In this document: piece by piece, positions 128 to 64,000 of the stretch
Position numbering within the stretch: position 1 is the first letter of the stretch
Layout of the letters: each line of letters begins with the position of its first letter
From: Azonexus sp.
Lineage (GTDB): Bacteria > Pseudomonadota > Gammaproteobacteria > Burkholderiales > Rhodocyclaceae
DNA length: 64,000 nucleotides
Direction of reading: 5' to 3'
NCBI GenBank assembly: GCA_017983615.1
Contig: JAGOBB010000005.1
Location: 1 to 64,000, forward strand
Made by a program: the position numbers and the translations under genes
Notes under the pieces: generated by a model
What the model was told of the DNA's origin: nothing
What the model saw: only the letters and a program-made list of their open reading frames with translations
Databases searched by the model: none

Positions 128-1138
128 ATGAGCGCCGCCCTCTCGATTCCCCCGCACCGCTTGTCCATCGTCGTCCCGTTCTACAACGAGGAGGACAACA
201 TCGCGCCGCTGGTCAAGCGCGTGCACGAAGCGCTGGTCGGCTACGAACACCCGTGGGAACTGGTGCTGGTTGACGACGGCAGCAGCGATGCGACGGTCGA
301 TCGCGCCGTCCAGTGCAGCCGCGAATATGGCCCGCACGTCCGCGTCGTCGAGCTGACCCGCAATTTCAAGCAGACGGCGGCCATGCAGGCCGGCATCGAC
401 GCGGCGCGCGGCGATGTCATCGTGACCATGGATGGCGACCTGCAGAACGATCCGGTTGACATCCCGCGCATGGTTGCCCGGCTGCTGAACGAAGACCTTG
501 ATCTGGTCGCCGGCTGGCGCCAGAACCGCCAGGACGGCCTCGTCCTGCGCAAGATTCCGTCGAAGATCGCCAACCGTCTGATCGCCCGGATGACCGGCGT
601 CCATCTGCGCGACTACGGCTGCAGCCTGAAGGCTTACCGCGGCGACGTAATCAAGCGCGTGCGCCTGTATGGCGAGATGCACCGCTTCATTCCGGCCTGG
701 ATGGCGACCGTGACCACGCCGCGCCGCATCGCCGAAGAACCGACAACGCACCACGCCCGTACCGCCGGCGTCTCCAAATACGGCATTTCGCGCACCTTCC
801 GCGTCATCCTCGACCTCGTCGCCGTCTATTTCTTCATGCGCTTCCGCGCCCGGCCCGGCCACTTCTTCGGCGGCATCGGCCTCGGCCTGACGGCGCTTTC
901 CGGCCTCGTGCTGACCTGGCTGGCCTGGGTCAAGTTCGGCCTCGGCGAGAACATCGGCAGCCGCCCGCTGCTGATCGTCGGCATCGGCGGCCTGATTGCC
1001 GGCGTGCATTTCATCACCACCGGCGTGCTGGCCGAACTGCTGGCCCGCATCTACTTCGAGTCGGGCACCGTCCGCTCCTACTCGGCGCGTCCGGAGCGCC
1101 CGCTGGCAGCCGATGAAGGCTGGCACAAAACGGCATGA
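128..1138 (+). CDS. GT2 polyprenyl-phosphate glycosyltransferase (ArnC/GtrB-like)
   Basis: 336 aa. The GT-A fold of family 2 shows VPFYNEEDN (about residues 16-24), DDGSSD and the MDGDLQNDP metal/nucleotide-binding region, then DYGCSLKAYR, typical of ArnC/GtrB/DPM1-type enzymes that load a sugar onto undecaprenyl phosphate at the inner membrane face. Two hydrophobic C-terminal segments (about residues 245-310) are probable membrane anchors. The stop overlaps the next ATG (ATGA), so it is translationally coupled to the GT39 gene. With the following GT39 and PAP2 genes this suggests lipid A or other envelope glycan modification. The sugar cannot be told from sequence. Upstream (1-127) I see no complete gene, and only a weak TAAAAT -10-like hexamer at 97-102. 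Confidence 0.9.
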   Translation: MSAALSIPPHRLSIVVPFYNEEDNIAPLVKRVHEALVGYEHPWELVLVDDGSSDATVDRAVQCSREYGPHVRVVELTRNFKQTAAMQAGIDAARGDVIVTMDGDLQNDPVDIPRMVARLLNEDLDLVAGWRQNRQDGLVLRKIPSKIANRLIARMTGVHLRDYGCSLKAYRGDVIKRVRLYGEMHRFIPAWMATVTTPRRIAEEPTTHHARTAGVSKYGISRTFRVILDLVAVYFFMRFRARPGHFFGGIGLGLTALSGLVLTWLAWVKFGLGENIGSRPLLIVGIGGLIAGVHFITTGVLAELLARIYFESGTVRSYSARPERPLAADEGWHKTA

Positions 1139-2601
1139 ATGCTACGGTCAGCCCGTTTTTTTGCCCAAAAACGAAATTTCTGATCGGCCTGACGGCCGCC
1201 CTGCTCGCCTGGCGTTTCTGGGCCGTCCCGCAGCTCGGCATCACGCTCTACGTCGATGAAGCGCAATACTGGACCTGGGCGCAGAACCTCGACTGGGGCT
1301 ACTTCTCCAAGCCGCCCGGCGTCGCTGCGCTGATCTGGCTGTCCACCGCGCTGTTCGGCGACGGACTGCTCGGCGTCAAGGCGCTGGCCATGCTCTGCTA
1401 CCCGCTGGCCGCCGGTGTCTGCTATGCCATCGCCTGCCGCCTTTACGACGAGCGGGTCGCTTTCTGGTCGGCCATCGCCGTGCTGACCCTGCCGATGTTC
1501 GCCTGGCTCGGCCTGTTCGTTTCCACCGATGCGCTGCTCACCCTGTTCTGGACCCTGGCGCTGTGGTCCTACCTGCGCGCGCTGGACAGCGACGCCTGGG
1601 GCGACTGGCTGCTGCTCGGCCTGATCTGCGGCCTCGGCCTGCTCTCCAAATACACGATGGCGGCCTGGCTGGGTGCCGCCTTCCTGCATCTGATCGTCTT
1701 CCACCGCGCCAAACTCGCCTCGTCCAAGCCCTGGGCCGCCGCGACGCTGGCCTTGCTGATCCTGTCGCCAAACATCTACTGGAACATCGCCCATGACTTT
1801 CCGACCCTGAAGCACACCGCCTACATCACGCTGGAAAGAAAATCCGGCGGCGGACTGCCCTCGTTCGGCGAATTCTGGGCCGCCCAGTGGCTGGCCTTCG
1901 GCCCGGTACTCGGCTGCGTTTTCGCACTGATGCTGCTGCGCGCCCGGCAAAGCTGGCGCGACGACAACACCCGTCTGCTGCTCTGGTTTGCGCTGCCGCT
2001 GTGGGCCATCGTTTCGATCCAGGCGATCAAGGGCGGCGCCAATGCCAACTGGGCCGCCCCCGCCTTTGCGCCAACCGCCATCGCGGCCGTCGCCTGGCTG
2101 CTGAAGCGAGGCAAACTGAAATGGCTGCTCGCCGGCATCGCCTTCAACGTCGCAGTCGTCGGGCTGGTTTATCACTGGGCGCCGCTGAAAGACGCGATCG
2201 GCTCGCAAAAGCTGGCCAAGCTGAACCCCTACAAACGCGCCCAGGGCTGGGACGAACTTGGCCGGCAACTGCAGCCCATCCTCGTCGCCAATCCCAAAGC
2301 CGTACTGGTCGCCGACAACCGCACGCTGCTCGCCCACATGCTCTACGAACTGCGCGACCTGAAGCCGGCCGCCGCCAGCTGGAATCCCTCCGGCGCACCA
2401 AGCGACCATTACAAGCTGACCACCGATCTGCGCCCGTGGATCGGCAAGGATGCCATCCTGATCATCCAGAAACCCGTGGGCAACGAGTTCTCGACCCGCT
2501 TCGCCGGCATCGAAAAGCTCGCCACGCTGAAAGCCCCGCTCGATGCCGCGACTTCCCGCGACATGGACGTCTATCTGCTGCATGAATTCAAGGGTTACTG
2601 A
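1135..2601 (+). CDS. GT39 family membrane glycosyltransferase (ArnT/PMT-like)
   Basis: 488 aa integral membrane protein of the PMT_2/ArnT class. The first luminal loop carries YVDEAQYWTWAQ, with the DE acidic pair used by lipid-phosphate-sugar transferases, followed by many hydrophobic segments and a soluble C-terminal third. It would move a sugar from an undecaprenyl-phosphate carrier, probably made by the preceding GT2, to a periplasmic acceptor such as lipid A. The ATG overlaps the GT2 stop by 4 bp. Codons 2 to about 13 (NATVSPFFCPKTK) are a copy of the dispersed repeat described below, so the cytoplasmic N-terminus is repeat-derived. Whether the substrate is aminoarabinose is unknown; no arnA/arnB genes are in the window. 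Confidence 0.88.
   Translation: MNATVSPFFCPKTKFLIGLTAALLAWRFWAVPQLGITLYVDEAQYWTWAQNLDWGYFSKPPGVAALIWLSTALFGDGLLGVKALAMLCYPLAAGVCYAIACRLYDERVAFWSAIAVLTLPMFAWLGLFVSTDALLTLFWTLALWSYLRALDSDAWGDWLLLGLICGLGLLSKYTMAAWLGAAFLHLIVFHRAKLASSKPWAAATLALLILSPNIYWNIAHDFPTLKHTAYITLERKSGGGLPSFGEFWAAQWLAFGPVLGCVFALMLLRARQSWRDDNTRLLLWFALPLWAIVSIQAIKGGANANWAAPAFAPTAIAAVAWLLKRGKLKWLLAGIAFNVAVVGLVYHWAPLKDAIGSQKLAKLNPYKRAQGWDELGRQLQPILVANPKAVLVADNRTLLAHMLYELRDLKPAAASWNPSGAPSDHYKLTTDLRPWIGKDAILIIQKPVGNEFSTRFAGIEKLATLKAPLDAATSRDMDVYLLHEFKGY
1138..1172 (+). repeat. Dispersed ATGCTACGGTC repeat, copy 1
   Basis: Core at 1139-1149, then AGCCCG, a run of seven T, GCCC and AAAAACGAAA. It lies immediately after the ATG of the GT39 gene, in its reading frame. 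See the first finding for the family description. Confidence 0.9.
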
Positions 2602-9804: not shown

Positions 9805-11574
9805 TCAGGAGAATGTCGCGTTCACCGCGAGAAGTTTCTTTCCCGATGCCTCTGTTGTGGATGAGCCTTCACGGATGTATGCCTTTTCACCCAAAAAAGA
9901 AACCTCTTTTTGCGGCGGTACCCTCAGGCGAATAACAGAAAGTCCCTTGTAGGTAATAGTGTCGACTTGAGACGCCACTTGATGCTTCAGGTTTGGCGAC
10001 AATTCAGACGCAGAGACGACCCCGACAATACGTTTCACATACGCTTCCAGGTTAGTAGCAAGCAAGGGCAGTTCGCGATCTACTCCAACGACGAAACGGT
10101 TTCCTACCCGGACAGCCTGTACGCCGTCTAGCTGCTCAATTCTATTAGAGTCACTTTCCTTGTCGGCGACACCGAAGAACACGAACCCGTCACTGTCAGG
10201 GCCAATGTTCGCGATAGCGCAGATAGTTTCGAGAATCTTCTGGTCGAGTGATTTGTCAAACTCCCTCTTGTCCGCGAGGGACACAAACCCTTGTTTGCAC
10301 TCGTAACGTCCTGATTCGATTTTGGATCTGCGCAGTGCGTTCTCGAAGTCCAATGCGAGTCCAGCACCATGCCTAAGCATGGGAGGATCTTTTTTCACGA
10401 AATGGCGCTGGATTAAACCTTTAGTTTTATCTGTGTTCTTAATCCGATCTTCTGTCTTTGCGTATTTCGCAGTGCTGATCATGTCCTTCTGCAGCCCTGC
10501 CAGTGCCTTCATTATTTTGTCTTCATCGCACGGGGACTTTTCCTCAACAATCACCAGATCGTGGAAGGCCATGAAAAGTGCAAAAAAAGAGGCCTTAATT
10601 GGATTGGTGGAACCGGGATTGATGATGGTCCGTAGAGCATTCGGCTGAGGGTTATGGTGCTCGATCACTTCTCTCAGAACAGAGAGCGTGACTTTGATTT
10701 CCTCGTATAGCCGGTCAACGCCGTAGGCATTCAGTTTCCTTAGCATCTCCGCGTGTTCGGACGTTGAATCGTCGTAGATGACATCGAGCAGTTCACGGCT
10801 TCGCGCTATCGGCTGTCCCAGCACAATAGAAGCGCAGATGTCTGCCAAGATTTCTTCGTCCTCGCTTTCCCGCAACTGCTTCGTCCAGAGAATGCCCTGC
10901 TTGCACCAGAATATTTCCTCAGCCTTCAGCGAATAACCCAGACCACGGCGGGCAGTGTCGATGCTGATTTCGGGCATCTCTGAAAGCGACAGAATCTCGC
11001 GCGAAGCGTCGCCTCGAATTTCCGAAGCCAAACGCCGAACGAGAGTTGAAAATTCGTTTACCTTTCCAGCCTGCCGTTTCTCCTGCCAACTGAGTTGCTG
11101 TCCACCAGAATTGATCCGGCCGAATACTTCCGTGACCTGGCTATCGCTTACAGAAGGGAAAATCGTGACTGCAAGTTGGTAATCTAGGAAGTCAGCACAG
11201 GAGGCTGCTTCTAGCAGTGAGGCTCCTTCCAGCACCTCGAAGGCACCAGCCTCGGCTGCCTGCTTGGCTCGGGCGAATTGGGCAATGTCAAAATATTGCT
11301 CTTTCACACTAAATTCGTGTTCGATGAATCCGAATATGGCGTTCAGCCTTTGCATTCCGTCAATGATCTCGTAGAAAGAGGCGCCACCAGTCGCCTTCTC
11401 AGCAAATAGGATCAGCGGAATGGGGTAATCGTTCACGATGCTGTCGATCAGGCTCTCTTTTTCCTCTTGAGTCCAGACGAGTTTGCGTTGATATTTGCGA
11501 TTGACGACAAGTTTGTCATCCCGGTATAGCCGGTATGCTTCTTGGACACTCATGCCTCGTGGCGTTATGCTCAT
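9805..11574 (-). CDS. DUF262 (GmrSD-N/ParB-like) - AlbA_2 (Schlafen-type) fusion protein
   Basis: 589 aa. The N-terminal half has the DUF262 blocks: KYQRKLVW (about 28-34), IDGMQRL (71-77; usual form DGQQRL, so one Gln is Met here) and EVFGRINSGGQQLSWQE (149-165). After a helical middle, the C-terminal third (about 405-589) fits an AlbA_2/Schlafen DNA-binding domain: ESGRYECKQGF, ICAIANIGPDSDGFVFFGVAD and a final KAYIREGSSTTEAS block. DUF262 enzymes include NTP-dependent restriction nucleases such as GmrS, and AlbA_2 domains occur in regulators and defence proteins. The gene stands alone, has visibly lower GC than its neighbours, and splits an otherwise coherent sigma-54 regulon, which suggests horizontal acquisition. 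Function as anti-phage defence is an inference. Confidence 0.8.
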   Translation of the reverse strand: MSITPRGMSVQEAYRLYRDDKLVVNRKYQRKLVWTQEEKESLIDSIVNDYPIPLILFAEKATGGASFYEIIDGMQRLNAIFGFIEHEFSVKEQYFDIAQFARAKQAAEAGAFEVLEGASLLEAASCADFLDYQLAVTIFPSVSDSQVTEVFGRINSGGQQLSWQEKRQAGKVNEFSTLVRRLASEIRGDASREILSLSEMPEISIDTARRGLGYSLKAEEIFWCKQGILWTKQLRESEDEEILADICASIVLGQPIARSRELLDVIYDDSTSEHAEMLRKLNAYGVDRLYEEIKVTLSVLREVIEHHNPQPNALRTIINPGSTNPIKASFFALFMAFHDLVIVEEKSPCDEDKIMKALAGLQKDMISTAKYAKTEDRIKNTDKTKGLIQRHFVKKDPPMLRHGAGLALDFENALRRSKIESGRYECKQGFVSLADKREFDKSLDQKILETICAIANIGPDSDGFVFFGVADKESDSNRIEQLDGVQAVRVGNRFVVGVDRELPLLATNLEAYVKRIVGVVSASELSPNLKHQVASQVDTITYKGLSVIRLRVPPQKEVSFLGEKAYIREGSSTTEASGKKLLAVNATFS

Positions 11575-11918
11575 TGCCTACTCTCCGTACGGCTACTCTG
11601 ACTGAATCCTTTTATCATATTTCGGGATATCCCACTCAGACAGAGCCGTCCTAATCCGAATTTTTTGGGTGATGGCCTACGCTTCTGTTACACACGATAG
11701 AAATTGCAACCGAGGGGCGAGCTGCCAAAGTTGGCTACTGACCAATCCAGCCGTTGATGGCTTCTGTGGAGTAGCACTGCAGTTCAATTTCGGCGATTGG
11801 CAGCATGCGAGACCGGCAGCTCTAGGCAGCGGTCTCAGACACTGAGGCTGCAGCTTCATTCGAGAATGCTACGGTCGGCCCGAAAAAACGGCCAAAACCA
11901 AAACGCCGGTCGGGCCGC
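11575..11918. other. Intergenic region without a convincing gene
   Basis: 344 bp between the start of the DUF262-AlbA_2 gene and the end of the response regulator gene. The half next to the DUF262 gene is AT-rich and should hold its promoter. The rest holds only a short low-confidence ORF and a copy of the dispersed repeat at its right edge. No terminator recognised. Confidence 0.6.
11865..11899 (+). repeat. Dispersed ATGCTACGGTC repeat, copy 2
   Basis: Core 11866-11876, then GGCCCG, six A, CGGCC, AAAACCAAAA. It is one of the fullest copies and shows the two GGCC blocks flanking the A-tract. Intergenic, just past the 3' end of the response regulator gene. Confidence 0.93.
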
Positions 11919-13238
11919 TCAGATCATCCCGTACTTCTTCAGCTTGTCGTACAGCGTCGTCCGCGCCACTTTCAGCGCTTCGCTGGTGCGGGCGATATTG
12001 CCGTCCTGCAGCGTGAATTCGCGGGTGATCAGCAGGCGTTCGTAGTTGTCGACGGCTTCGGTCAGCGACTGCGGGGCGTTGCTGGCGCTGGCCACGGCGT
12101 CGAGGCCGATGCCGAGGGCGTGGCAGTCGGCGGCGTTGCGCAGTTCGCGGATGTTGCCCGGCCAGTCGCGGGCCATCAGGTGGCGCAGGTAGTCCGAGGT
12201 CAGCGGCGGCAGCGGCCGGTTGTAGCGCTTGGCGGCCTGGAGCAGGAATTCGTCGTAGAGGGCCGGGATGTCCTCGCGCCGTTCGCGCAGCGCCGGCAGT
12301 TCGATGCGCACGACGTTGAGCCGGTAGTAAAGGTCGGCGCGGAATTTCCCTTGCTCGGAGAGCAGCTTGAGGTCGTCCTTGGTGGCGGCGATGACCCGGC
12401 ACGACACGGGAATCTGCTGGTTGGAGCCGAGCCGTTCGATGACCCGCTCCTGCAGCACGCGCAGCAGCTTGATCTGCATGTTCATCGGCATCGACTCGAC
12501 TTCGTCGAGGAAGAGCGTGCCGCCGCTGGCGTATTCGATCTTGCCGATGCGCCGCTTCTGCGCGCCGGTGAAGGCGCCCGGCTCGTGGCCGAAGAGTTCG
12601 CTGTCGAGCAGGTTGTCAGCCATGCCGCCGCAGTTGAGGGCGACGTAGTTTTCCTGGCCGGGGTGCGACAGGTCGTGCAGGCAGCGGGCGACCATTTCCT
12701 TGCCGGTGCCGGTTTCGCCGAAGATCAGCACGTCGACGGCCGCCCCGGCAACGTCGAGGATCAGCTGGCGGACCTTGGCCATCTGCGGCGAGCGGCCGAT
12801 CAGGCGGGATTCGATGTCGTCGCGATGGTCGAGCCGGCGGCGCAGGGCGTCGACTTCGAGGACCAGTTCGCGCTTTTCCAGCGCCCGGCGGACGACCTCG
12901 ATCAGGTCGCCGGTCGAGAACGGCTTCTGCATGAAATCGTAGGCGCCGCTGCGCATCGCCTCGACTGCCAGCGTGACGTCGCCGTGGCCGGTGATGATGA
13001 TGACCGGCAGGTCGGCGTCGCGCTCGACGACCCAGCGCAGCAGCGCCATGCCGTCGATGCCGGGCAGGCGCATGTCGGTGACGACGATGCCCGGGTAGCC
13101 GGCGGCCAGGCGGCGCTGCGCCTCTTCGGCCGAGCCGACGGCCTCGACCGGGATGCCGGCGAGTTGCATGGCCTGTTCGCAGCCGAGGCGGACATTGGGA
13201 TCGTCTTCAACGAGCAGGACGGAGAGTGGGGGTTTCAT
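11919..13238 (-). CDS. aauR: Sigma-54-dependent response regulator (AauR/DctD type)
   Basis: 439 aa NtrC-family activator. Receiver domain with phospho-acceptor Asp55 (VVTDMRLPG); AAA+ domain with Walker A GETGTGKE (174-181) and the sigma-54 contact loop GAFTGA (221-226); C-terminal Fis-type helix-turn-helix ending ARTTLYDKLKKYGMI. Phosphorylated by the kinase encoded just upstream (4-bp overlap), it would bind TTCGG-N4-CCGAA-like sites and open sigma-54 promoters. Exactly such sites and promoters precede aspA and gltI in this window, and a sigma-54 promoter precedes ansB. The AauR name rests on this context; DctD and GltR are close relatives. Confidence 0.9.
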   Translation of the reverse strand: MKPPLSVLLVEDDPNVRLGCEQAMQLAGIPVEAVGSAEEAQRRLAAGYPGIVVTDMRLPGIDGMALLRWVVERDADLPVIIITGHGDVTLAVEAMRSGAYDFMQKPFSTGDLIEVVRRALEKRELVLEVDALRRRLDHRDDIESRLIGRSPQMAKVRQLILDVAGAAVDVLIFGETGTGKEMVARCLHDLSHPGQENYVALNCGGMADNLLDSELFGHEPGAFTGAQKRRIGKIEYASGGTLFLDEVESMPMNMQIKLLRVLQERVIERLGSNQQIPVSCRVIAATKDDLKLLSEQGKFRADLYYRLNVVRIELPALRERREDIPALYDEFLLQAAKRYNRPLPPLTSDYLRHLMARDWPGNIRELRNAADCHALGIGLDAVASASNAPQSLTEAVDNYERLLITREFTLQDGNIARTSEALKVARTTLYDKLKKYGMI

Positions 13239-15160
13239 GGCTTGCCTTGTTCAGGGGGAGCCGGCGGCACGGCCGGCAACAGGATGACGAAGCGCGCGCC
13301 GCCGCCCGGCGCCGGGCCGGCCAGCAGGTCGCCGCCGAAATCGCGCAGGATGTCGCGCGAGATGGTCAGGCCGAGGCCGAGGCCTTCGCCCGGCTGCTTG
13401 GTGGTGAAGAAAGGCTCGAACAGGTGTTCCAGCGCCTTGTCGGTAAAACCGACGCCGCTGTCGCAGACGGCCAGCGCGATCTGGCCGGATTCGGTGGGTT
13501 CGGCGGCGAAGCTCAGGCGACGTTCGGGCACCTCGGCCATGGCGTCGATGGCGTTGCCGATCAGGTTGACCAGCACCTGCTGCAGGCGATTCTGGTCGCA
13601 CCAGGCGATTGGCGAATTTGGGCCAAATTTTCGCTCGACCGTAGCATTCTGCTTTTTCAGGCGCGCATCGAACAGGAACAGCGCCGCATCGACCGCCTGC
13701 GCCACATCGACCGGCGCCGAGACGGCCGGCGACTTGCGGGCGAAGGTTTTCAGCGGCGTGATGATGCCGCCGGCCTGCTCGGCCAGCTGGCCGACGATGC
13801 CGAGGTTCTTTTCGGCGGTGGCAAGGTCGCCGCGATGCATGAATTCGACGGCGTTGGCCGACAGCGTGCGGATGGCGCCGAGCGGCTGGCTGAGTTCATG
13901 GGTGATGCCGGTCGCCATCTGGCCGAGCACGGCGAGCTTGGCGGCCTGCACCAGTTCATCCTGGGCGGCGCGCAGGGTGTGTTCGGCACGCTGGCGTTCG
14001 GCGACTTCGCGCTGCAGGCCGGCGACGGCCTCGGAGAGATCGGCGGTGCGCGCGGCGACGTTGCGCTCCAGTTCCTGGTTGGCCCGTTCGAGCATGGCGC
14101 GGGCTTCTTCACGGCCGCGTGCCAGGCGCCGGCGCTGGCTAAGGAAGAGCAGCCAGAGCAGGAAGCAGCCGACGGCCGCGGCGGCCAGCGCGGCGTGCGT
14201 TGCCGCCTGCACATGGACCGGCCGCAGATCGGAAAAGACGACAATGCGCCAGGCCGTGCCGGGCAGGTGGCGGCTCAGCGCGAGGTAGGACCTGGCGCCC
14301 TGCAGCGGCCCGGGGTCGGGCTTCAGCTGGCGCGACAGGCGAACGACCGTGCCTTCCTGCGCGGCGTCGATGGCGATGTCCAGCGAGGTGACGCCGACCG
14401 GCTGGCCGGCGAACTGCTCGCGGCTGATGCTCGCCAGTTCTTCCCGGCTTTTCGGCTGCAGCGTGGCGTAGCGCCATTCAGGCGGCGAGGCGAGCAGCAC
14501 GACGCCGCTGGCATCGACGATCAGGGCCGGCGCCTCCTGGCCGAGCCAGCGCCGCTCCAGTTCGTGCAGGCTGGACTTGACGACGGCGACGCCGATCACC
14601 TTCCAGTCCTGCGTCTCGTCGCGGATGGGCAGCGCGAAGAAATAGCCCGGCTCCTTGCGCACGTCGTCCACCGCATAGCGCCGCCCCGGCGTGCCGGCGA
14701 TGGCGGCGCGGAACAGCGGGTTGTAGGAAAGATCGGCGCCGAGCAGGTTGTCGGAGAAGATCCAGTCGCTGGAAGCGACCACCCGGCCGCTGGTGTCGAG
14801 CACGAAAATGGCTGGCCCGCCGAGATGGTCGTTGAGCTTTTGCAGGAAATGGTTGGCCGCGGTTCGCAAGTTTTCCTGCCGGCCGGCCGGGGCGCGCAGC
14901 AGGGCGAGAACGTCCGGGTTCAGTTCGACGGCGCTGGGGATCGAGGCATGGCGCGTCACCTCGCTGTCGATGGCGGCGGCGAGGACATCCAGCTGGTGGC
15001 TGGCCTCGTCGCGCATCTGGCTGAAGCCCTGCTGCTCGGATACCCGGTAGGCGAGCAGCGCAGTGACCATGATCAGGACCAGCATGCCGACCAGCACCAG
15101 CGCGTGATGCGGCTTGGGCAAGGCGACCGGGATGGGCTGGCGGGTTTCAGGCATGGTCAT
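13235..15160 (-). CDS. aauS: Sensor histidine kinase (AauS/DctB type)
   Basis: 641 aa. One membrane segment near residues 20-40, a large periplasmic sensor region (about 45-300), a second membrane segment (about 310-330), a coiled linker, then the kinase core: H-box GITHELSQPLGAIRTL, N-box NLIGNAIDAM and the G boxes near CDSGVGF and GEGLGLGLTI. The DctB-like architecture suggests direct sensing of periplasmic glutamate/aspartate. It overlaps the regulator gene by 4 bp. A dispersed repeat copy is embedded in frame just before the ATPase domain (QNATVERKFGPNSP), a spot that is variable among kinases. Confidence 0.92.
   Translation of the reverse strand: MTMPETRQPIPVALPKPHHALVLVGMLVLIMVTALLAYRVSEQQGFSQMRDEASHQLDVLAAAIDSEVTRHASIPSAVELNPDVLALLRAPAGRQENLRTAANHFLQKLNDHLGGPAIFVLDTSGRVVASSDWIFSDNLLGADLSYNPLFRAAIAGTPGRRYAVDDVRKEPGYFFALPIRDETQDWKVIGVAVVKSSLHELERRWLGQEAPALIVDASGVVLLASPPEWRYATLQPKSREELASISREQFAGQPVGVTSLDIAIDAAQEGTVVRLSRQLKPDPGPLQGARSYLALSRHLPGTAWRIVVFSDLRPVHVQAATHAALAAAAVGCFLLWLLFLSQRRRLARGREEARAMLERANQELERNVAARTADLSEAVAGLQREVAERQRAEHTLRAAQDELVQAAKLAVLGQMATGITHELSQPLGAIRTLSANAVEFMHRGDLATAEKNLGIVGQLAEQAGGIITPLKTFARKSPAVSAPVDVAQAVDAALFLFDARLKKQNATVERKFGPNSPIAWCDQNRLQQVLVNLIGNAIDAMAEVPERRLSFAAEPTESGQIALAVCDSGVGFTDKALEHLFEPFFTTKQPGEGLGLGLTISRDILRDFGGDLLAGPAPGGGARFVILLPAVPPAPPEQGKP
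13614..13648 (-). repeat. Dispersed ATGCTACGGTC repeat, copy 3
   Basis: Core on the minus strand at 13637-13647, then GAGCG, AAAATTT, GGCCCAAATT. Lies inside the histidine kinase gene in the sense direction and is translated as NATVERKFGPN. Confidence 0.9.
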
Positions 15161-15190
15161 GAAAGCGATGAAGGCTTCATTGTAAGTTTG

Positions 15191-15225
15191 AAAACTGCCT
15201 TTTTTTGGGGGGTGACCGTAGCATT
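15191..15225 (-). repeat. Dispersed ATGCTACGGTC repeat, copy 4
   Basis: Core on the minus strand at 15214-15224, then ACCCCCC, seven A, GGCAGTTTTC. Sits in the gap between marC and the histidine kinase gene. Confidence 0.9.
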
Positions 15226-15239
15226 TGGCGACGCGGCAC

Positions 15240-15884
15240 TCAAATGCCGGCCATGAAGCTACGGATGCCCGAACCGACGAACTGCACGCCGATGCAGATG
15301 AGCAAAAAGCCAGTCAGGCGGGCGACGACGTTGATGCCCTCCGCCCCCAGCCGGCGCGACACCCAGCGCGCCGAGCGCAGGACCAGCCAGATCAGCAGGC
15401 AGGTCGCGGCGATGCTGGCCACCGTTGCCGCGTAGGCCAGCAGGCGGCGCGCGCCGCCGGCCAGTTCGGCGATTTCGCTGGAAATGCCGATTACCGTCGC
15501 CAGCGCCCCCGGCCCGGCGATGCCCGGCATGGCCAGCGGGAAGAAGGCGAAGCTGCCGCTGCCGCCACCCTGCACCGTGTCGCCGGTGCCGAACAGCATG
15601 CGGTAACCGATCAGGGCCACGGTCAGGCCGCCGGCGATACGCAGGGCACCGAATGAAATGCCGAAGGCTTCAAGGATGAAGACGCCAGCGAACAGTCCGA
15701 CGGTGAGCAGCAAAAAACCGTAGAAACAGGCCCGACGCGCTTCCTGCGAGGCGCTGCCGACTTCGAGGTCGGCCGCCAGCGTCAGGAAGACGGGAATCTT
15801 CGACAGCGGGTTGGTGATCGTCGCCAGGCTGACCAGACTGCCGAGAAAGAAGCTGATCGCCAGACGGTTCAGGCTATCGTCCAT
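15240..15884 (-). CDS. MarC family integral membrane protein
   Basis: 214 aa from the ATG at 15884; a TTG at 15908 would add eight residues. Six hydrophobic segments and the MarC/NAAT opening LVSLATITNPLSKIPVFL, with GGLTVALIGYRMLFG in the middle. The biochemical role of MarC proteins is poorly known; the family was once annotated as neutral amino acid transporters and as multiple antibiotic resistance proteins. It starts about 20 bp after gltL on the same strand and could be the last gene of the glt operon. Confidence 0.88.
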   Translation of the reverse strand: MDDSLNRLAISFFLGSLVSLATITNPLSKIPVFLTLAADLEVGSASQEARRACFYGFLLLTVGLFAGVFILEAFGISFGALRIAGGLTVALIGYRMLFGTGDTVQGGGSGSFAFFPLAMPGIAGPGALATVIGISSEIAELAGGARRLLAYAATVASIAATCLLIWLVLRSARWVSRRLGAEGINVVARLTGFLLICIGVQFVGSGIRSFMAGI

Positions 15885-15904
15885 CAGGGACGGGCTCAAG
15901 GGGT

Positions 15905-16633
15905 TCAATGGTGGAGGATCTTGGCCAGGAACTGCTGCGCCCGCTGCGAACGGGGGTTGGCGAAGAAGGCCTCCTTGCTGTCGTCCTCGACGATGGCGCC
16001 CTGGTCCATGAAGATGACCCGGTCGGCGACGCGCTTGGCAAAACCCATTTCATGCGTCACGCACATCATGGTCATGCCTTCGTGGGCCAGTTCGGTCATC
16101 ACGTCGAGCACCTCATTGACCATTTCCGGATCGAGCGCCGAGGTCGGCTCGTCGAACAGCATGCAGATCGGGTCCATGGCCAGCGCCCGGGCGATCGCCA
16201 CGCGCTGCTGCTGGCCGCCGGACAGCTGGCCGGGGAACTTGGCGGCCTGCGCCTTGAGGCCGACCCGGTCGAGCAGCTTGAGGCCCTTGTCCATCGCCTC
16301 TTCCTGACTGCGGCCGAGCACCTTGACCTGGGCGATGGCCAGGTTCTGGGTGATGCTCATGTGCGGGAACAGCTCGAAATTCTGGAAGACCATGCCGACG
16401 CGGGCGCGCAGTTTGGAGAGGTTGGTTTTCGGGTCGCCGACCGAGGTGCCGTCGACGATGATTTCACCGGCCTGGAAGGGTTCCAGGCCATTGACGCACT
16501 TGATCAGCGTGGACTTGCCGGAGCCGGACGGGCCGCAGACGACGATGACTTCGCCCTTGGCGACCGAGGTGGTGCAATCCTTGAGCACCTGGAAGCTGCC
16601 GTAGTGCTTGCTGACGTTGGCGATATTGATCAT
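15905..16633 (-). CDS. gltL: Glutamate/aspartate ABC transporter ATP-binding protein
   Basis: 242 aa. Walker [13 protein letters not shown] signature [15 protein letters not shown], Walker [14 protein letters not shown] and the switch His in [10 protein letters not shown] are all intact. It powers uptake of acidic amino acids through the GltJK channel. The start is the ATG at 16633 ([12 protein letters not shown]), preceded by AAGGAGA, so the longer upstream reading frame is not used. Confidence 0.96.
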
Positions 16634-16655
16634 GGGATGTCTCCTTGGGCGGCGC

Positions 16656-18076: not shown

Positions 18077-18105
18077 GACGGTCTCCTCAAGGATATTTTT
18101 GTTGC

Positions 18106-18129
18106 CCCTCCCCCGCTGGCGGGAGAGGG
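18106..18129. repeat. REP-like hairpin between gltI and gltJ
   Basis: CCCTCCCCCGC-TG-GCGGGAGAGGG, an imperfect stem with one mismatch, of the CCCTCTCCCGC type common between proteobacterial genes. Its position between the binding-protein and permease genes suggests mRNA stabilisation of gltI or partial termination. Confidence 0.6.
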
Positions 18130-19225: not shown

Positions 19226-19257
19226 CACCAGCATCGCCACTAAGTTCAGGGGAACAA

Positions 19258-19292
19258 AATGCTACGGTCGTCGTAAAAAAACCGCCTTTTTC
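19258..19292 (+). repeat. Dispersed ATGCTACGGTC repeat, copy 5
   Basis: Core 19259-19269, then GTCGT, seven A and CCGCC. The A-tract and CCGCC form part of the trpE terminator read on the minus strand, so repeat and terminator overlap. Confidence 0.9.
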
Positions 19293-19300
19293 GGCGGTTT
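19273..19300 (-). terminator. Rho-independent terminator of trpE
   Basis: On the minus strand AAACCGCC-gaaaaa-GGCGGTTT followed by a T run (complement of the A-tract from 19274). It lies 23 bp past the trpE stop. The T-tract is supplied by the dispersed repeat copy 5. Confidence 0.88.
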
Positions 19301-23327: not shown

Positions 23328-24401
23328 CGGCAGCGGGTCGGAGCGATCCTTGCCGAGCGCATCTTCGATCCAGGCCAGCATCAACGTCCAGGTCACGGCC
23401 AGCACGACCGGGCCGACGAAAATGCCGATCAGGCCAAAACTCAGCATGCCACCAATGACGCCGGCGAAGATCAGGAGCAGCGGCAGGTCGGCGCCGCGCC
23501 GGATCAGCATCGGCCGCAGGAAGTTGTCCAGACTGCCGACGATCAGGCTCCACACGAGCAGCGCAGTCGCCCAGCCGGTATCGCCCATCCAGTACATCCA
23601 GCCGACAGCCGGCAGCAAAATCAGCATCGGCCCGATCTGGGCGATGCACAGCATCAGCATGACCGCCGAGAGCAGCGCGGCGAAGGGGACGCCGGCGACG
23701 GCCAGCCCGAGCCCGCCAAGTAACGTCTGGACGATGGCGGTAACACCGACACCGAGCGCCACGCCGCGAATCGCCTGCCCGGCCAGGATGATCGAATTTT
23801 CGCCGCGCTCGCCGGCCAGTCGGCGACCGAAGCGACGCATCAGCCGCGCCCCGTCTTCGCCGCCGGCATAGAGGATGGCGGCAATGGTCACGACCAGCAG
23901 GAACTGGATCAGCATGCCGCCGAAACCACCAACTTGAGCGAGCACCCACTTACCGGCATCGGCCGAGTAGGGCGTCACCTTGGCGACGATGCCGGAGGTA
24001 CCTGCTGCGTCGAGCTGAGCCCACGCGGTGGCCAGACGCTCACCAACCAGCGGCAGGGTTTTGACCCAGGCCGGCGGCGCCGGCAAGCCGTTGGCCGCCA
24101 GGGACTGGAATGCTACGGTCAGCTGCCCCGAATGCTCAAAAATCGTATCGATCGCCAGCCACAGCGGCAACACCAGCAGCAGCAACATGGCCAGCGTCAT
24201 GATCGCCACGGCCGGCCCGCGGCGATTGCCGAGGCGAGCTTCCAGCGACAGGAACAACGGCCAGGTGGCGACGACGATCATCGCCGCCCAGACGCTGGCC
24301 GCCAGGAAGGGCCTCAGCACCCAAAGACTCAGACCAATCAGCCCGAGAATGCAAAGGATGGCCAGCGTGTTGCGAGCCAGGTCGCGGCGGATATCGGTCA
24401 C
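23283..24401 (-). CDS. AI-2E family transporter (PerM/YdiK-like)
   Basis: 372 aa with about eight membrane segments. The C-terminal family signature is clear: GSLDNFLRPMLIRRGADLP and FGLIGIFVGPVVLAV. Members include the AI-2 exporter TqsA and Na+/H+ antiporters; the substrate here is unknown. The tail (about 20 residues rich in Pro, Glu and Asp) overlaps the end of the opposing methyltransferase gene. A dispersed repeat copy lies inside in antisense (GQLTVAFQS), in a soluble stretch after the second membrane hairpin. Confidence 0.88.
   Translation of the reverse strand: MTDIRRDLARNTLAILCILGLIGLSLWVLRPFLAASVWAAMIVVATWPLFLSLEARLGNRRGPAVAIMTLAMLLLLVLPLWLAIDTIFEHSGQLTVAFQSLAANGLPAPPAWVKTLPLVGERLATAWAQLDAAGTSGIVAKVTPYSADAGKWVLAQVGGFGGMLIQFLLVVTIAAILYAGGEDGARLMRRFGRRLAGERGENSIILAGQAIRGVALGVGVTAIVQTLLGGLGLAVAGVPFAALLSAVMLMLCIAQIGPMLILLPAVGWMYWMGDTGWATALLVWSLIVGSLDNFLRPMLIRRGADLPLLLIFAGVIGGMLSFGLIGIFVGPVVLAVTWTLMLAWIEDALGKDRSDPLPSKLPEPDQPEPAAD
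24109..24143 (+). repeat. Dispersed ATGCTACGGTC repeat, copy 7
   Basis: Core 24110-24120, then AGCTGCCCCGAATGC and TCAAAAATCG. Antisense within the AI-2E-type gene, coding for LTVAF on the gene strand. The A-tract is short in this copy. Confidence 0.85.
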
Positions 24402-24429: not shown

Positions 24430-25656
24430 TCAGCTGCGGTAATCCGCGTTGATCTTCACGTAATCGTAGGAGAAATCGCAGGTGTAAATGTTCGCCCTGG
24501 CAGCACCGCGACCGAGATCGACACGGACGGTGATCTCGGCCTGTGCCATCACACGGGCGCCGTCGGCTTCCTTGTAGGCTGCGGCTCGGCCACCGTTCTC
24601 GGCGACCAGCACATCATCCAGCCAGACCTTGACGCCATCGACATCGAGGTCGGCGATGCCGGCGTAGCCAATGGCGGCCAGGATACGGCCGAGGTTGGGG
24701 TCGGAGGCAAAGAAAGCGGTCTTGACCAGCGGCGAGTGACCGATGGCGTAACCGACCTTGCGACACTCTTCGGCGTCCTTGCCGCCTTCAACGGCGACGG
24801 TGATGAACTTGGTGGCGCCTTCGCCATCGCGGACGATGGCCTGCGCCAGCTCGACGGCAACGGCAATCATCGCCGCCTTGATCTCGGCCCAGCCGGCATC
24901 GGTCTCATGGGCAATCGTCACGCCGGACTGGCCGGAGGCGATCATCACGAAGGAATCGTTAGTCGAGGTGTCGCCATCGACGGTGATGCAGTTGAACGAG
25001 GCGTCGGCAGCTTCCTTGACCAGTTGGTCGAGCAGCGGCTGGGCGATGCCGGCGTCGGTGGCGACGAAGCCGAGCATGGTCGCCATGTTCGGCTTGATCA
25101 TGCCGGCGCCCTTGGAAATTCCGGAAATGGTCACTTTTTTGCCATTGACCGTAGCATTCCGCGACGCGGCCTTGGCAATGGTGTCGGTGGTCATGATGGC
25201 GTGCGCGGCGGCATGCCAGTTGTCGGCATTCAGGTTGGCCTTGGCCGCCGGCAGCCCGGCAACCAGACGGTCAACCGGCAACGGTTCGAGAATGACGCCG
25301 GTCGAGAAGGGCAGCACCTGGTCGGCGCCGATGCCGAGCAATTCGCCGACTGCATCGCACGTGGCTTGCGCCGCCTGACGACCCGGCTCGCCGGTGCCGG
25401 CATTGGCGATGCCGGTATTGATGACCAGCGCGCGAATGCCCTTGCCAGCCGCCAGGTGGTTACGGCAGAGCTGAACCGGTGCTGCGCAGAAGCGGTTTTG
25501 CGTAAACACGCCGGCCACCGTGCAGCCGGCATCTAGGGCGACCAAGGTCAGGTCGCGGCGGTTCTTCTTGCGGATTTCGGCTTCGGCGACACCGAGGCGG
25601 ACGCCGGCCACCGGAAACAGTTGATCGGCAGCGGGCGTGGCGTAATTGACGGGCAT
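24430..25656 (-). CDS. argJ: Bifunctional ornithine acetyltransferase / N-acetylglutamate synthase
   Basis: 408 aa. ArgJ recycles the acetyl group between N-acetylornithine and glutamate in arginine synthesis. The autoproteolytic site [16 protein letters not shown] is intact; the precursor is cut before the Thr of ATML, which becomes the nucleophile of the beta chain. The C-terminus [17 protein letters not shown] is typical. A dispersed repeat is embedded in frame shortly before the cleavage site ([12 protein letters not shown]), at a surface beta-hairpin position by family comparison. Starts at ATG 25656. Confidence 0.96.
25124..25158 (-). repeat. Dispersed ATGCTACGGTC repeat, copy 8
   Basis: Core on the minus strand at 25147-25157, then AATGGC, six A, GTGACCATTTCC. 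Sense and in frame within argJ (NATVNGKK). Confidence 0.9.
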
Positions 25657-29493: not shown

Positions 29494-29928
29494 ATGTACA
29501 AAGGGCCTGAGCAATACCTCGACAGCGATGCCGCAGCGGGCCGCATCATGGCCCACGCTCGCCTGTTGCTCAAACTCTCGCGTCGCTTCGAAGCAGTCGC
29601 ACCCACCGGGCTGCGCCATGCCGCTCACGTTGCCAACTACAAGTCGGGGAAAATCATTATCCACGCCGATAACGGCGCGGTCGCCGCCAAGATTCGCCAG
29701 TTGAGTCAGCGCTTGAGCGACGAGTTATCGAAAGGAGGGACGGAGTGTAACGGCATAGAGGTTAAAGTTCAACCCCGCCAAATTCCTTCCCAATCAACGA
29801 GTTCTACTCAAAAGCCAATCTCTGGCAAGGCCATTGGAATGCTACGGTCGGCCTCCGAAAACATGCCAAAAGGCGCGCTCAGGGAGGCGCTCGAGCGCCT
29901 GCTCGAACGCAGCGCTAAAGCGGAATGA
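29494..29928 (+). CDS. DUF721 / DciA-like protein
   Basis: 144 aa. The N-terminal half fits DUF721 (DciA), the helicase-loading partner of DnaB in most bacteria: LDSDAAAGRIMAHARLLLKL and LRHAAHVANYKSGKIIIHAD, then QLSQRLSDEL. It is short for the family. The ATG at 29494 lies only 10 bp from the divergent M23 start and lacks a Shine-Dalgarno, so initiation may be weak or leaderless, with its promoter inside the M23 gene. The C-terminal tail (GMLRSASENMPKG) is encoded by a dispersed repeat copy. The DciA role is inferred from domain and locus (between secA and lpxC). Confidence 0.8.
   Translation: MYKGPEQYLDSDAAAGRIMAHARLLLKLSRRFEAVAPTGLRHAAHVANYKSGKIIIHADNGAVAAKIRQLSQRLSDELSKGGTECNGIEVKVQPRQIPSQSTSSTQKPISGKAIGMLRSASENMPKGALREALERLLERSAKAE
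29838..29872 (+). repeat. Dispersed ATGCTACGGTC repeat, copy 9
   Basis: Core 29839-29849, then GGCCTCCG, AAAA, CATGCCAAAAGG. Sense within the DUF721 gene, but in a different reading frame from the other sense copies (read as MLRSASENMPK). Confidence 0.9.
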
Positions 29929-35222: not shown

Positions 35223-35244
35223 GCTTTGCTCCACAAACAATTTC

Positions 35245-35279
35245 AAAAATGGCCATTTTTTTGGGCCGACCGTAGCATT
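35245..35279 (-). repeat. Dispersed ATGCTACGGTC repeat, copy 10
   Basis: Core on the minus strand at 35268-35278, then GGCCC, seven A and the perfect palindrome AAAAATGGCCATTTTT (35245-35260). Fills the 63-bp gap between murC and ddlB, the only sizeable gap from murF to ftsA. Confidence 0.93.
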
Positions 35280-35285
35280 TGAGTT

Positions 35286-38892: not shown

Positions 38893-40241
38893 GGCTTAAG
38901 CGCCTCCACCGCCTCGATGAAGGCCTGCGCGCGATGCGCGTAGTTGCGATACATGTCCAGGCTGGCGCAGGCCGGCGAAAGCAGCACGCAGTCACCGGAT
39001 TGGGCCTGGGCGGCCAGCCAGCGCACGGCGGCGGCCATGTCGCCGACGATGCAGGTCGGTACGCCGCTGCCTTCGAGCGCCATGCCGATGGCTGCGGCAT
39101 CGCGGCCGATCAGCGCCACGGCGCGACCGTGTTTTTCCAGGGCCGGCTTGAGCGGCGAGAAATCCTGGCCCTTGCCGTCGCCGCCGAGAACGATGGCGAC
39201 CTTGCGGCCCATGCCTTCGATGGCGGCCAGCGTGGCGCCGACATTGGTGCCCTTGGAGTCGTCGACATAGAGCACGCCGCCGATTTCGGCCACCGTCTCG
39301 ACGCGGTGGGCGAGGCCTTTGAAGGCTTTCAGTGGCTCGACCAGGCGTGCCGGCTCGACGCCGAGCGCTTCGCACAAGGCCAGCGCTGCCATCGCGTTGG
39401 CGGCATTGTGCAGGCCGGACAATTTCAAATCGGCCAGCGCGACCAGTTGTTGCTGGCCACGGCAGATGGCGCCGTCGACAAAGCCGTAGTCGACGCCGCG
39501 CGGCGCAGCATTCAGGCCGAAAGTCACCATCGTCCGGCCGCAACGGCCATTGGCCATCGACCAGTCGTCGTCGCGGTTCAGGACCATGACGCCCTGCCCC
39601 TGGAAGACGCGCGACTTGGCGGCGGCGTAGTTGGCCAGGCTGCCCTCGTAGCGGTCGAGATGATCCTCGGAAATATTGAGCACGGTGGCCGCGGCGGCGT
39701 TCAGGTGGTGCGTCGTCTCGAGCTGGAAGCTGGACAGCTCGACGACCCAGACTTGCGGCGGAGTGCCGGCGTCCTGGGCATCCATCAGTGCATCGAGGGC
39801 CGACGGCGAAATGTTGCCGCAGGCGACGGCCGACACGCCGACACCGTTCAGCAGGTGGGCAGTCAGCGCGGTGGTCGTCGTCTTGCCGTTGCTGCCGGTG
39901 ATGGCGATGATCTTCGAGCCCGGCACCTGCTCGCGCACGCCGGCGGCGAACAACTCGATTTCCGAGACAATTTTGCCGGCGACCGTAGCAATCACCGGCT
40001 CGGCCTTGGGGACGCCCGGCGACAGGGCAACGATCTCGGCCCAGGCGAACGGCGCTCCCGTAAACGGCCCGGCAATCAGTTCGGCACCCGGCGCCACGCG
40101 CTGCAGGGCGTCTACGTTGGGCGGGGTGTCGCGCGAATCGGCGACGCGGACTACCGCGCCCTGGCGATGCAGCCACTTGGCCATCGCCAGTCCGGACTCA
40201 CCGAGTCCGACGACCAGAACGCGTTTGCCCTTGAGATCCAT
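38886..40241 (-). CDS. murD: UDP-N-acetylmuramoyl-L-alanine--D-glutamate ligase
   Basis: 451 aa. [15 protein letters not shown] binds [18 protein letters not shown] is the P-loop; [20 protein letters not shown] is the C-domain signature. It adds D-Glu to UDP-MurNAc-Ala. A copy of the dispersed repeat is embedded in the sense frame at [13 protein letters not shown], just before the P-loop domain. It abuts mraY directly. Confidence 0.97.
39958..39991 (-). repeat. Dispersed repeat, copy 11 (10/11 core)
   Basis: TGCTACGGTC on the minus strand at 39981-39990, preceded by T instead of A, then GCCGGC, AAAATT, GTCTCGGAAA. In frame within murD ([10 protein letters not shown]). Confidence 0.78.
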
Positions 40242-42715: not shown

Positions 42716-44193
42716 GCCGCTTCCTCCTGTTGGTTGCGGCGCAGTGCCAACGCGGCCTGCGCCTGCTCGACATCGGAGAAGGGCAGGCGAACGCTGCCCA
42801 GATCCTGATAGGGTTCATGACCTTTGCCAGCGAGCAGGATCACGTCATTTTCACCGGCCTCAACCACGGCGCGACGGATTGCCGTGGCGCGGTCTGCCTC
42901 GACCTCGGCATGGGTCATGCCGGCAAGAATTTCGTCGATGATGGCCTGGGGCGACTCGCTGCGCGGGTTGTCGCTGGTAACCAGCACGCGGTCGGCCAGG
43001 CGTTCGGCGATCTGGCCCATTTGCGGACGCTTGCCCTTGTCGCGGTCGCCGCCGCAACCGAAGACGACGCACAGGCGGCCACCGCGCGGGGTTGCCACGT
43101 CGCGCAGTGCTTGCAGGGCATTTTCCAGGGCGTCCGGGGTGTGGGCATAGTCGATGACGACCAGCGGCTCGCCGTTGCCGCCAACGCGTTCCATGCGCCC
43201 CGGCGGCGGCGTCAGTTCGGCAACGCGACGCGCCACCTCGGCGGCCGGCAGGCCGGCGTCGTGCAGCACGGCAGCGACGGCCAGCAAATTGGAGATGTTG
43301 TAGCGACCGACCAGCCCGGTTTCGACGGTGACCCGACCGTTCGGCAGAACAAGGCTGAACGACTGACCCGAAGGCGTATCGACCAGGTTTTCAGCGCGGA
43401 CCAGCGCTGGGAAGTCGCGGCGCGCTTCGCCGATGGCGTAGCCGAGAACGCGCATGGCACTGGTCTCGCGCATCAGCTTGAGGCCGAACTCGTCATCCAG
43501 GTTGATGATCGCAGTGCGCAGGCGCGGCCAGTGGAAGAGCTTTTCCTTGGCGTCGGCATAGGCTTCCATGCTGCCGTGGTAATCGAGGTGGTCGCGGGTG
43601 AAATTGGTGAACACCGCGACGTCGACGCGGGCGCCGTTCATCCGGCCCTCCTCGATGCCGATCGAGCTGGCTTCCAGCGCGCAGGCGGCGGCGTGTTTGG
43701 CGCGGAACTCGGCCAGGTAGCGCATCAGGGTCGTCGCTTCCGGCGTCGTGAAGCCGGTTTCGACCAGCGCATCCGGGAAGCCGGCGCCGAGCGTACCGAT
43801 GATCGCGCAAGGCTTCGGGTAGGCGCGGGCCAGGCACTGGCTGATCGTCGTCTTGCCATTGGTGCCGGTGATGGCGATCAGCGACAGGTTTTCGCTCGGG
43901 TGACCATAGACCATGTGGGCCAGCGGGCCGGCCAGCGGGCGCAGGGCGTGAACGGGCAATGCTACGGTCGGCCCGAAATTTTGTCCAAAATCAAAATCAC
44001 CGCCGGGTTGCCAGAACACGGCTACGGCGCCACGCGCCAGCGCGTCGGCGATGTAACGGCGGCCATCGGCCAGATCGCCCGGATAGGCCAGGAAGAGATC
44101 GCCCGGCCGGACCTGGCGACTGTCGTCGGCAACACCGGTCGGCACGACGCCCATCGCCTCCAGGCGGTCAAGGAGTTCGCGCGGCGCGCTCAC
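42712..44193 (-). CDS. murE: UDP-MurNAc-Ala-Glu--meso-diaminopimelate ligase
   Basis: 493 aa. P-loop IAITGTNGKTTISQCLA, carbamylated-Lys region, and the diaminopimelate-selecting motif TSDNPRSE (DNPR) near residue 405, so the third peptide residue is meso-DAP. Between the N-terminal domain and the P-loop a dispersed repeat copy is read in antisense as GQNFGPTVALPV. It overlaps ftsI by 4 bp. Confidence 0.97.
   Translation of the reverse strand: MSAPRELLDRLEAMGVVPTGVADDSRQVRPGDLFLAYPGDLADGRRYIADALARGAVAVFWQPGGDFDFGQNFGPTVALPVHALRPLAGPLAHMVYGHPSENLSLIAITGTNGKTTISQCLARAYPKPCAIIGTLGAGFPDALVETGFTTPEATTLMRYLAEFRAKHAAACALEASSIGIEEGRMNGARVDVAVFTNFTRDHLDYHGSMEAYADAKEKLFHWPRLRTAIINLDDEFGLKLMRETSAMRVLGYAIGEARRDFPALVRAENLVDTPSGQSFSLVLPNGRVTVETGLVGRYNISNLLAVAAVLHDAGLPAAEVARRVAELTPPPGRMERVGGNGEPLVVIDYAHTPDALENALQALRDVATPRGGRLCVVFGCGGDRDKGKRPQMGQIAERLADRVLVTSDNPRSESPQAIIDEILAGMTHAEVEADRATAIRRAVVEAGENDVILLAGKGHEPYQDLGSVRLPFSDVEQAQAALALRRNQQEEAA
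43958..43992 (+). repeat. Dispersed ATGCTACGGTC repeat, copy 12
   Basis: Core 43959-43969, then GGCCCG, AAATTTT, GTCCAAAATCAAAATC. Very close to copy 2 in the tail. Antisense inside murE, yet it leaves the frame open. Confidence 0.93.
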
Positions 44194-52570: not shown

Positions 52571-52696
52571 CTAAGTGCCTCCTGTTACTTGTTTAAGATT
52601 AAGAAAACTGGCCGTTGGAACGGCAGCACGGTAAAAGTAGCATACCTTTTTGAATAAGTGTTGGCCCAGTGGGGCTTTATGGCCGCCCGGTCCGTG

Positions 52697-52731
52697 AATT
52701 TTTGTAATTTTCAGACGTCGACCGTAGCATT
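52697..52731 (-). repeat. Dispersed ATGCTACGGTC repeat, copy 13
   Basis: Core on the minus strand at 52720-52730, then GACGTCTG, AAAATT, ACAAAAATTC. Intergenic between napC and hupB. Confidence 0.9.
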
Positions 52732-52792
52732 TGCCCTGCAAAAGACAACCCCGGCCATGGGCCGGGGCAATCTTCATACTGCGAGGATGCGA

Positions 52793-57563: not shown

Positions 57564-57629
57564 AGTCGTTAGTCGTTAGTTGCTAGTTGTTAGCGCTTGC
57601 TCGCAACTAGTAACTACCGACTAATAACT
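57564..57629. repeat. Long hairpin of tandem heptads after ahpC
   Basis: Left arm 57564-57589, right arm 57604-57629, 14-base loop. The 26-bp stem has 22 Watson-Crick pairs and two G-T pairs. Each arm is built of 7-mers (TTAGTCG, TTAGTTG, CTAGTTG; CAACTAG, TAACTAC, CGACTAA). It begins 3 bp after the ahpC stop and is followed by a run of six T at 57644. It may terminate or attenuate transcription before ahpF. Related to the heptads beside secA. Confidence 0.8.
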
Positions 57630-57633
57630 CGCA

Positions 57634-57668
57634 GATTTCAGTGCTTTTTTCCGGCCGACCGTAGCATT
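57634..57668 (-). repeat. Dispersed ATGCTACGGTC repeat, copy 14
   Basis: Core on the minus strand at 57657-57667, then GGCCGG, six A, GCACTG. Intergenic between ahpC and ahpF; on the plus strand the A-tract is a T-tract just after the heptad hairpin. Confidence 0.9.
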
Positions 57669-57718
57669 TGTCCCTGGCCGGGAAAAACCAGTGAAATTGA
57701 AGTCAGGGAGAAAATAAT

Positions 57719-63770: not shown

Positions 63771-64000
63771 CGGACGCCCCCAAGAACGATGGCCGGCGCC
63801 AGCGCTTCGCTTTCGCCGGCGAACCAGTCGGTCGAGCGCGCCACCTGTGGCAGCACGGCCGGGCCGGACCACGGCAACCAGCCGCGGCGCGGGCAATACA
63901 GCTGCAATGCTACGGTCGATGGGTTTTTTGAGGCCAAAACGATCCACGCGTTGCCGACCAGTTCCTGCAGCGCTGGCTGGCGTTCAAGGATGGCGGCCAG
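63767..64000 (-). CDS. C-terminal end of a putative DUF2309/DabA protein (truncated by window)
   Basis: The last 77 codons of a gene that continues beyond the right edge, ending in TGA overlapping the NuoL-like ATG. The readable part contains LERQPALQELVGNAWIVLAS, resembling the conserved C-terminal block of DUF2309 (DabA/YbcC) proteins, then RRGWLPWSGPAVLP. DabA is a zinc, carbonic-anhydrase-like subunit that with DabB accumulates inorganic carbon. The call rests on this tail and on the DabB-like neighbour, so it is tentative. A repeat copy is embedded in antisense (NPSTVALQL). Confidence 0.55.
   Translation of the reverse strand: MAAILERQPALQELVGNAWIVLASKNPSTVALQLYCPRRGWLPWSGPAVLPQVARSTDWFAGESEALAPAIVLGGVR
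63906..63940 (+). repeat. Dispersed ATGCTACGGTC repeat, copy 15
   Basis: Core 63907-63917, then GATGGG, six T, GAGGCCAAAACG. Antisense within the truncated DUF2309-like gene without breaking its frame. Confidence 0.9.

Follow-up and report, generated by a model that had tools for sequence, protein, structure and literature searches.

A dispersed 40-bp repeat in Azonexus is a probable DNA uptake signal sequence with species dialects

A 64,000-nucleotide stretch of Azonexus sp. DNA (assembly GCA_017983615.1, contig JAGOBB010000005.1, positions 1 to 64,000; hereafter the window) carries a dispersed repeat of about 40 bp. Our analysis indicates that a naturally competent betaproteobacterium (Azonexus/Dechloromonas, Rhodocyclaceae) very probably uses this element as its DNA uptake signal sequence; the group would be the third lineage with sequence-specific uptake. 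We infer this function because the whole profile of the element matches published descriptions of uptake sequences: abundance, strand neutrality, regularity, origin in place, an excess of exact cores, dialects with a constant inner core, and phased AT tracts. A sequence-only reading of the window had proposed a small mobile element, a DNA-uptake-like signal or the site of a chromosome-organising protein, and the second of these is now strongly favoured.

A 40-bp element in hundreds of copies

The 11-mer ATGCTACGGTC occurs exactly 13 times in the window, and 16 matches are found when up to one mismatch is allowed, against 0.72 expected. Across the whole assembly (2,921,885 bases or 2.92 Mb, 34 contigs, 85.66% complete) it has 468 exact copies, 234 on either strand, and the reversed control word has none. 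Thus, the dispersed repeat announced by the sequence-only reading is real, and its genome-wide count lies nowhere near chance. The 13 exact cores listed there were also correct; the one-mismatch matches number three rather than two, and those at 288 and 20823 (the latter listed as a copy at 20824) have no AT tracts and fall outside the profile list described below.

The detailed analysis covered 456 kb of the genome, made up of the window and 20 further stretches. The 89 usable copies of the core TGCTACGGTC in this sample align without gaps and define an element of ~40 bp, longer than the ~35 bp first proposed, with the consensus rAATGCTACGGTC-N6-A6-N5-AAAAT-N2-AAAw. Read from the left, rAATGCTACGGTC is followed by a G/C-rich 6-mer, an A6-like tract in which T is also allowed, nGGCC, AAAAT, two looser bases and AAAw. 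Information content is near background 4 bp to the left of AA and ~38 bp to the right of T. The stacked copies bore out the sharp left edge, placed at rAA. The GGCC-like block and A/T tract described before are present as well, in a different order: the block stands between two AT tracts, and a third, weaker one follows. In architecture the element is a fixed core with AT tracts spaced about one helical turn. An Rfam scan of the window gave no family match.

A 41-column profile was trained on the 89 exact TGCTACGGTC copies, with a score of 20 as the site cut-off. It finds 87 sites in the 456 kb; the reversed profile finds none and column-shuffled profiles a mean of 0.2. Fourteen of these sites lie within the window, seven on each strand (Table 1), which replaces the earlier count of eight plus and seven minus copies. 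Copy density is ~1 per 6 kb. Exact copies of the 10-mer prevail over imperfect ones, with 89 exact and 23 one-mismatch copies when all 30 variants are summed. We rely on this comparison because it is free of the partial circularity of the 77 perfect 12-bp cores among the 87 profile sites, the profile having been trained on exact cores and penalising core mismatches.

Where do the copies lie? By hexamer-based gene calls made for this analysis (414 genes, 88.7% coding), 48 of the 87 cores are intergenic, 36 lie in genes and 3 on a gene edge. With 10.6% of positions intergenic, this is an enrichment of ~5-fold between genes (binomial p 1.8e-24). Intergenic copies with called neighbours on both sides (n=46) occupy 24 tandem, 15 convergent and 7 divergent gaps. 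Two-thirds of the genic copies (24/36) are on the gene's strand, and 20 of these 24 read xATV, 16 of them NATV. The 87 sites divide 44 to 43 between the strands, independently of local GC skew (44/87). Three of four contigs show no excess of runs on one strand; all six copies in the remaining contig are on the plus strand. Gaps between copies are more even than chance (coefficient of variation 0.56 vs 0.92), with none of 3000 simulations matched for gene or intergenic class giving so low a value, and only 2 gaps of 1 kb or less were seen against 15.2 expected. Among 5-kb windows, the fifth with the lowest GC contains about half as many copies (0.56 vs 1.06, p 0.006).

Table 1. Copies of the element in the window, as profile sites; cores were located by word search.
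Positions	Strand	Score	Context
1137..1177	+	48.7	core overlaps end of called gene 128-1138 and start of 1135-2601
11864..11904	+	54.5	intergenic
13609..13649	-	45.5	within histidine kinase-like gene 13235-15160
15186..15226	-	44.8	intergenic
19257..19297	+	34.9	intergenic
24108..24148	+	29.5	within AI-2E family transporter gene 23283-24401
25119..25159	-	39.2	within argJ 24430-25656
29837..29877	+	24.6	between called genes, stretch conserved in congeners
35240..35280	-	58.1 (top in window)	intergenic
39953..39993	-	30.5	one core mismatch (TTGCTACGGTC); within MurD-like Mur ligase gene 38886-40241
43957..43997	+	54.0	within Mur ligase gene 42712-44193
52692..52732	-	38.4	intergenic
57629..57669	-	39.7	intergenic
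63905..63945	+	29.0	outside called genes

Dialects of the word in the genus

Words derived from sequence samples were counted in genomes of 76 species of the genus, which is Azonexus/Dechloromonas as judged from record titles (handles G000 and so on). Word A (AATGCTACGGTC) has 451 copies in G000, 372 in G094 and 310 in G029, and at most 53 in other genus genomes. Word B (ACGGTCAACCGG) reaches 97 to 462 copies in 11 of the 76 species and word D (TGCTGCGGTCRAC) 93 to 357 copies in 22, four of which are also on the B list. Together, the A, B and D lists (3, 11 and 22 species) comprise 32 different species, each with at least 90 copies of one word; these count as strong, a further 10 species as weak, and 34 lie under the cuts. 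Samples from G034 and G061 suggest two further variants, C and E respectively. All five share CGGTC after A or G (RCGGTC). Counted from the C of CGGTC, each of the six sample sets has maxima of AT content near +12 and +23, which are weak at both tracts in C and at the first tract in D. The sets are small (6 to 89 copies), and the ranges searched were +8 to +16 and +18 to +26. The pattern CGGTC-N6-W4-N7-W4 reaches up to 77 times its reversed control within the genus. Among 285 genomes from 67 other genera of the family it has at most 19 copies, about the control level, with 13 vs 2 (G122) as the clearest excess.

In the 34 genomes that we class as 'none', the counts of words A, B and D and of the tract pattern lie under our cuts, and the class means no more than that. 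Some of them are slightly over control (tract pattern 53 vs 12 in G031; word D 10 vs 0 in G066). We read the class so narrowly because a word search in small samples can miss a dialect: G024 and G078 gave no clear word in samples of 19-20 kb, yet both have dialect D genome-wide (115 and 187 copies). A secA tree built from 19 genomes unites dialect B in one group (80/94), requires two changes for D and three for A, and nests non-carriers among carriers. From this pattern, the dialects appear to follow descent in part, with losses or regains.

Among named genomes, the extended dialect-A motif was found on at least 87 stretches, in records titled Dechloromonas sp. Dech2017, Azonexus sp., Rhodocyclaceae bacterium and Betaproteobacteria metagenome-assembled genomes (MAGs); the matches listed also included single MAGs titled as cyanobacterial, soil Proteobacteria and Gammaproteobacteria. 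A phage origin was considered and rejected: the same motif occurs in 6 viral-collection stretches with GC contents of 34% to 64%, one copy per stretch read, which looks like chance, although the expectation was not computed. Other frequent words were met in two genomes. In G075, GTAACAGCT, TAGCTGTTA and like words are strongly over-represented in 40 kb, perhaps as a local repeat, and in G070 AGAAGTCCGAGAA occurs ~9 times in 80 kb and bears no relation to the CGGTC word.

Could the element instead be bound by a chromosome-organising or nucleoid protein, in the manner of matS, parS or IHF sites, with a lineage-specific, fast-changing recognition sequence? Even spacing, the preference for intergenic positions, bendable AT tracts and the absence of strand bias would all suit such a site. 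However, dependence on position or strand would be expected, and strand is unrelated to GC skew. The word also changes between sister species of one genus, and 34 of the 76 congeners fall below the cuts, with at most traces of A, B or D, despite sharing the genes around the sites. This option of the sequence-only reading thus fits less well than an uptake signal, and we consider it improbable.

Other kinds of signal would likewise explain a genus-specific, over-represented word that changes between species and is enriched between genes: a recombination signal like Chi, the word of a restriction-modification system, or dispersed sites for a regulator or terminator. Chi and restriction words are far shorter than a 40-bp discontinuous motif, however, and the indifference of strand to GC skew again speaks against this group. 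Over a third of the copies (36/87) lie in genes and the intergenic ones are spread over tandem, convergent and divergent gaps. A terminator was rejected, no pairs able to form a hairpin being found within 300 bp. Rfam has no match in the window. We regard this whole group as very unlikely.

Three genic copies arose by substitution in place

Stretches matching window positions 11000-30900 are present in all 76 genus genomes (the window genome included), and an ortholog set of 20 such stretches from 19 congeners was aligned. At the three genic copies of this region, 43 of 43 spanning alignments have zero net length change and 37 are gapless. Thus, these copies arose by substitution in place and not by insertion. 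Alignment of orthologous loci, a check suggested by the sequence-only reading, gave no clean element-free site in 68 alignments at seven window sites and no net loss of 30 bp or more, the intergenic alignments being few and gapped. G030, G032, G070 and G097 have TGCTGCGGTCAAC at the site in the AI-2E transporter gene, and G070, G097, G012, G085 and G084 have ACGGTCAACC at the histidine kinase site.

The intergenic copy at 11864-11904 has just two spanning orthologs, from the dialect-B species G084 and G012, and both read CCACGGTCAACC, the dialect-B word in place. Because this site is intergenic, it escapes the objection that protein conservation maintains the word. Orthologs of the remaining two intergenic copies number three and six, all gapped; for the copy at 29837-29877, 12 of the 14 are free of gaps.

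A short non-autonomous mobile or copied repeat spread by insertion, of the REP (repetitive extragenic palindromic) or MITE (miniature inverted-repeat transposable element) type, which the element resembles in its sharp left edge and as a short, dispersed, lineage-restricted sequence with hundreds of copies in few species, is scarcely credible, since the genic sites have no insertion footprint (a mobile element being ruled out there by the 43 length-neutral alignments), no clean loss was seen at the seven sites and no pairs occur within 300 bp.

Proposed uptake by competent cells and comparison with known systems

The competence gene comEC (PF03772) is found in 71 of the 76 genus genomes and in 51 of the 51 good ones, and comEA (TIGR00426) exceeds its cut-off in 67. 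The window genome has comEC, comEA and prepilins. In two genomes, comEC is split at a near-identical place (PF03772 positions 26-29) by inserts of ~33 kb (G088:C1:2217000-2222000, L224; G002:C33:108000-113000, L225). In both, the N-terminal comEC piece is followed by a serine recombinase of ~597 aa (Resolvase and Recombinase domains), and the gene after it differs. The comEC matches of G018 and G019 likewise start at positions 26-27. These inserts look like an integrative-element family that targets comEC.

Prepilins were searched in ten genomes. A GspH/FimU-type minor pilin, found in 69 of the 76 genomes, differs inside dialect B (G070 and G073 vs G084, G085 and G002); the neighbour genes of a second, weaker GspH family suggest that it is an MSHA pilin. 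PilA-type pilins are of two kinds, both of which occur within dialect B (G070 and G084 vs G097). The major-pilin locus itself is of two kinds in this one genus, short cysteine-bearing pilins of 112-130 aa, paired in G029 and G070, and ordinary PilA-like pilins of 140-170 aa (L226, L227/L246, L231 and L239 vs L229, L233, L234, L237 and L238).

How might the element work? A pilus-associated surface receptor would recognise the RCGGTC-centred core, and the two downstream AT tracts, one helical turn apart, may ease bending or melting of the stiff duplex at the secretin. ComEA and ComEC would then import the DNA, which would recombine. If fragments bearing the word are preferred in uptake, cells would import mostly the DNA of close relatives. 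A point mutation that gives rise to the word, or brings a sequence closer to it, could then spread through biased uptake and recombination. Hundreds of copies would build up in place without transposition, and species may have shifted the word into dialects.

Several observations weigh against an uptake signal. Neither comEC nor comEA separates carriers from non-carriers, being equally common in both; comEC thus failed as a discriminator. No match to comEA exceeds the cut-off in four of the 32 strong carriers (G003, G076, G094 and G097), and G097 is a complete single contig; in the carrier G002, comEC is the gene split by the insert described above. The minor pilins examined as receptor candidates, in a search that was not exhaustive, do not track dialect. 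At the argJ site, ACGGTCAA is also read in the non-carriers G035 and G069, and the presence of the word in relatives at genic sites is in part ordinary protein conservation. Word A is scattered on the secA tree, although the AU test does not reject a single clade (p-AU 0.278). Inverted pairs, which are frequent in Neisseria and Haemophilus, are absent among the 87 sites. Finally, density is ~six-fold lower than that of Pasteurellaceae uptake signal sequences (USS), a density of one per kb being quoted for H. influenzae and Neisseria.

An article of October 2025 states in its introduction that discrimination of self DNA by such motifs is known only in Neisseriaceae and Pasteurellaceae (PMC12616744). 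In the betaproteobacterium Verminephrobacter, sequence-limited uptake is suspected, and the passage on it names no motif (PMC4212676). Among the matches listed from the open-licence literature, none concerned an uptake sequence for Rhodocyclaceae, Dechloromonas or Azonexus, or one with these core letters. The system described here is likely a separately evolved third one, in an environmental betaproteobacterial genus, with at least three dialect groups, many species without the signal, which they lost or never had, and a layout convergent with that of Haemophilus.

So far, only two cases have been available for judging why uptake signals evolve and why USS have AT tracts. A third, with dialects and with sister species below the cuts in one genus, would be an independent replicate and would make convergence of the tract layout testable. 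If the likeness to Haemophilus is convergent, a core with bendable tracts would meet a physical need of pulling folded DNA through a secretin and would be no accident of one family. The dialects would also provide a natural series for finding the receptor, and gene flow in these environmental bacteria would be channelled by sequence dialect.

Compared with known systems, the element has the general traits of uptake sequences: over-representation on both strands, origin by substitution (at the genic sites), an excess of exact copies and regular spacing. It shares with the DNA uptake sequences (DUS) of Neisseriaceae hundreds of strand-neutral copies, regular spacing and dialects built on a short inner core, such dialects having been described in that family (PMC3630211, PMC1626085). 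Unlike DUS, which are continuous 10-12-mers with a CTG core and no AT tracts, it has phased AT tracts, no constant CTG and no inverted pairs.

The design is nearest to that of the USS of Pasteurellaceae, which we compared in their Hin-type (AAGTGCGGT) and Apl-type (ACAAGCGGT) forms, yet the element is no member of that family. Its host is a betaproteobacterium, outside Pasteurellaceae. Against the USS core ANNNGCGGT, dialect A has TGCTACGGTC and dialect D has GCGGT preceded by TGCT; dialects A, B and E read ACGG and not GCGG. A G/C-rich 6-mer stands between the core and the first tract here, whereas the first tract of USS lies just 3' of the core, and more copies are found between genes (48/87) than in H. 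influenzae, for which 35% intergenic is implied. The likeness lies in the plan. USS are described as arising by substitution, with somewhat regular spacing and with core and tracts roughly single helical turns apart (PMC1626085); their inner GCGG is reported to be crucial, and rigid, slightly bent AT tracts to favour uptake (PMC7811141). Here too a fixed core, with an inner GCGG in dialect D (TGCTGCGGTC), is flanked on one side by two AT tracts that lie roughly one helical turn apart (~+12 and ~+23 from CGGTC). As described for USS (PMC1626085, PMC7811141), copies originate by point mutation (at the genic sites), perfect copies outnumber those with one mismatch, and the variants are lineage-specific.

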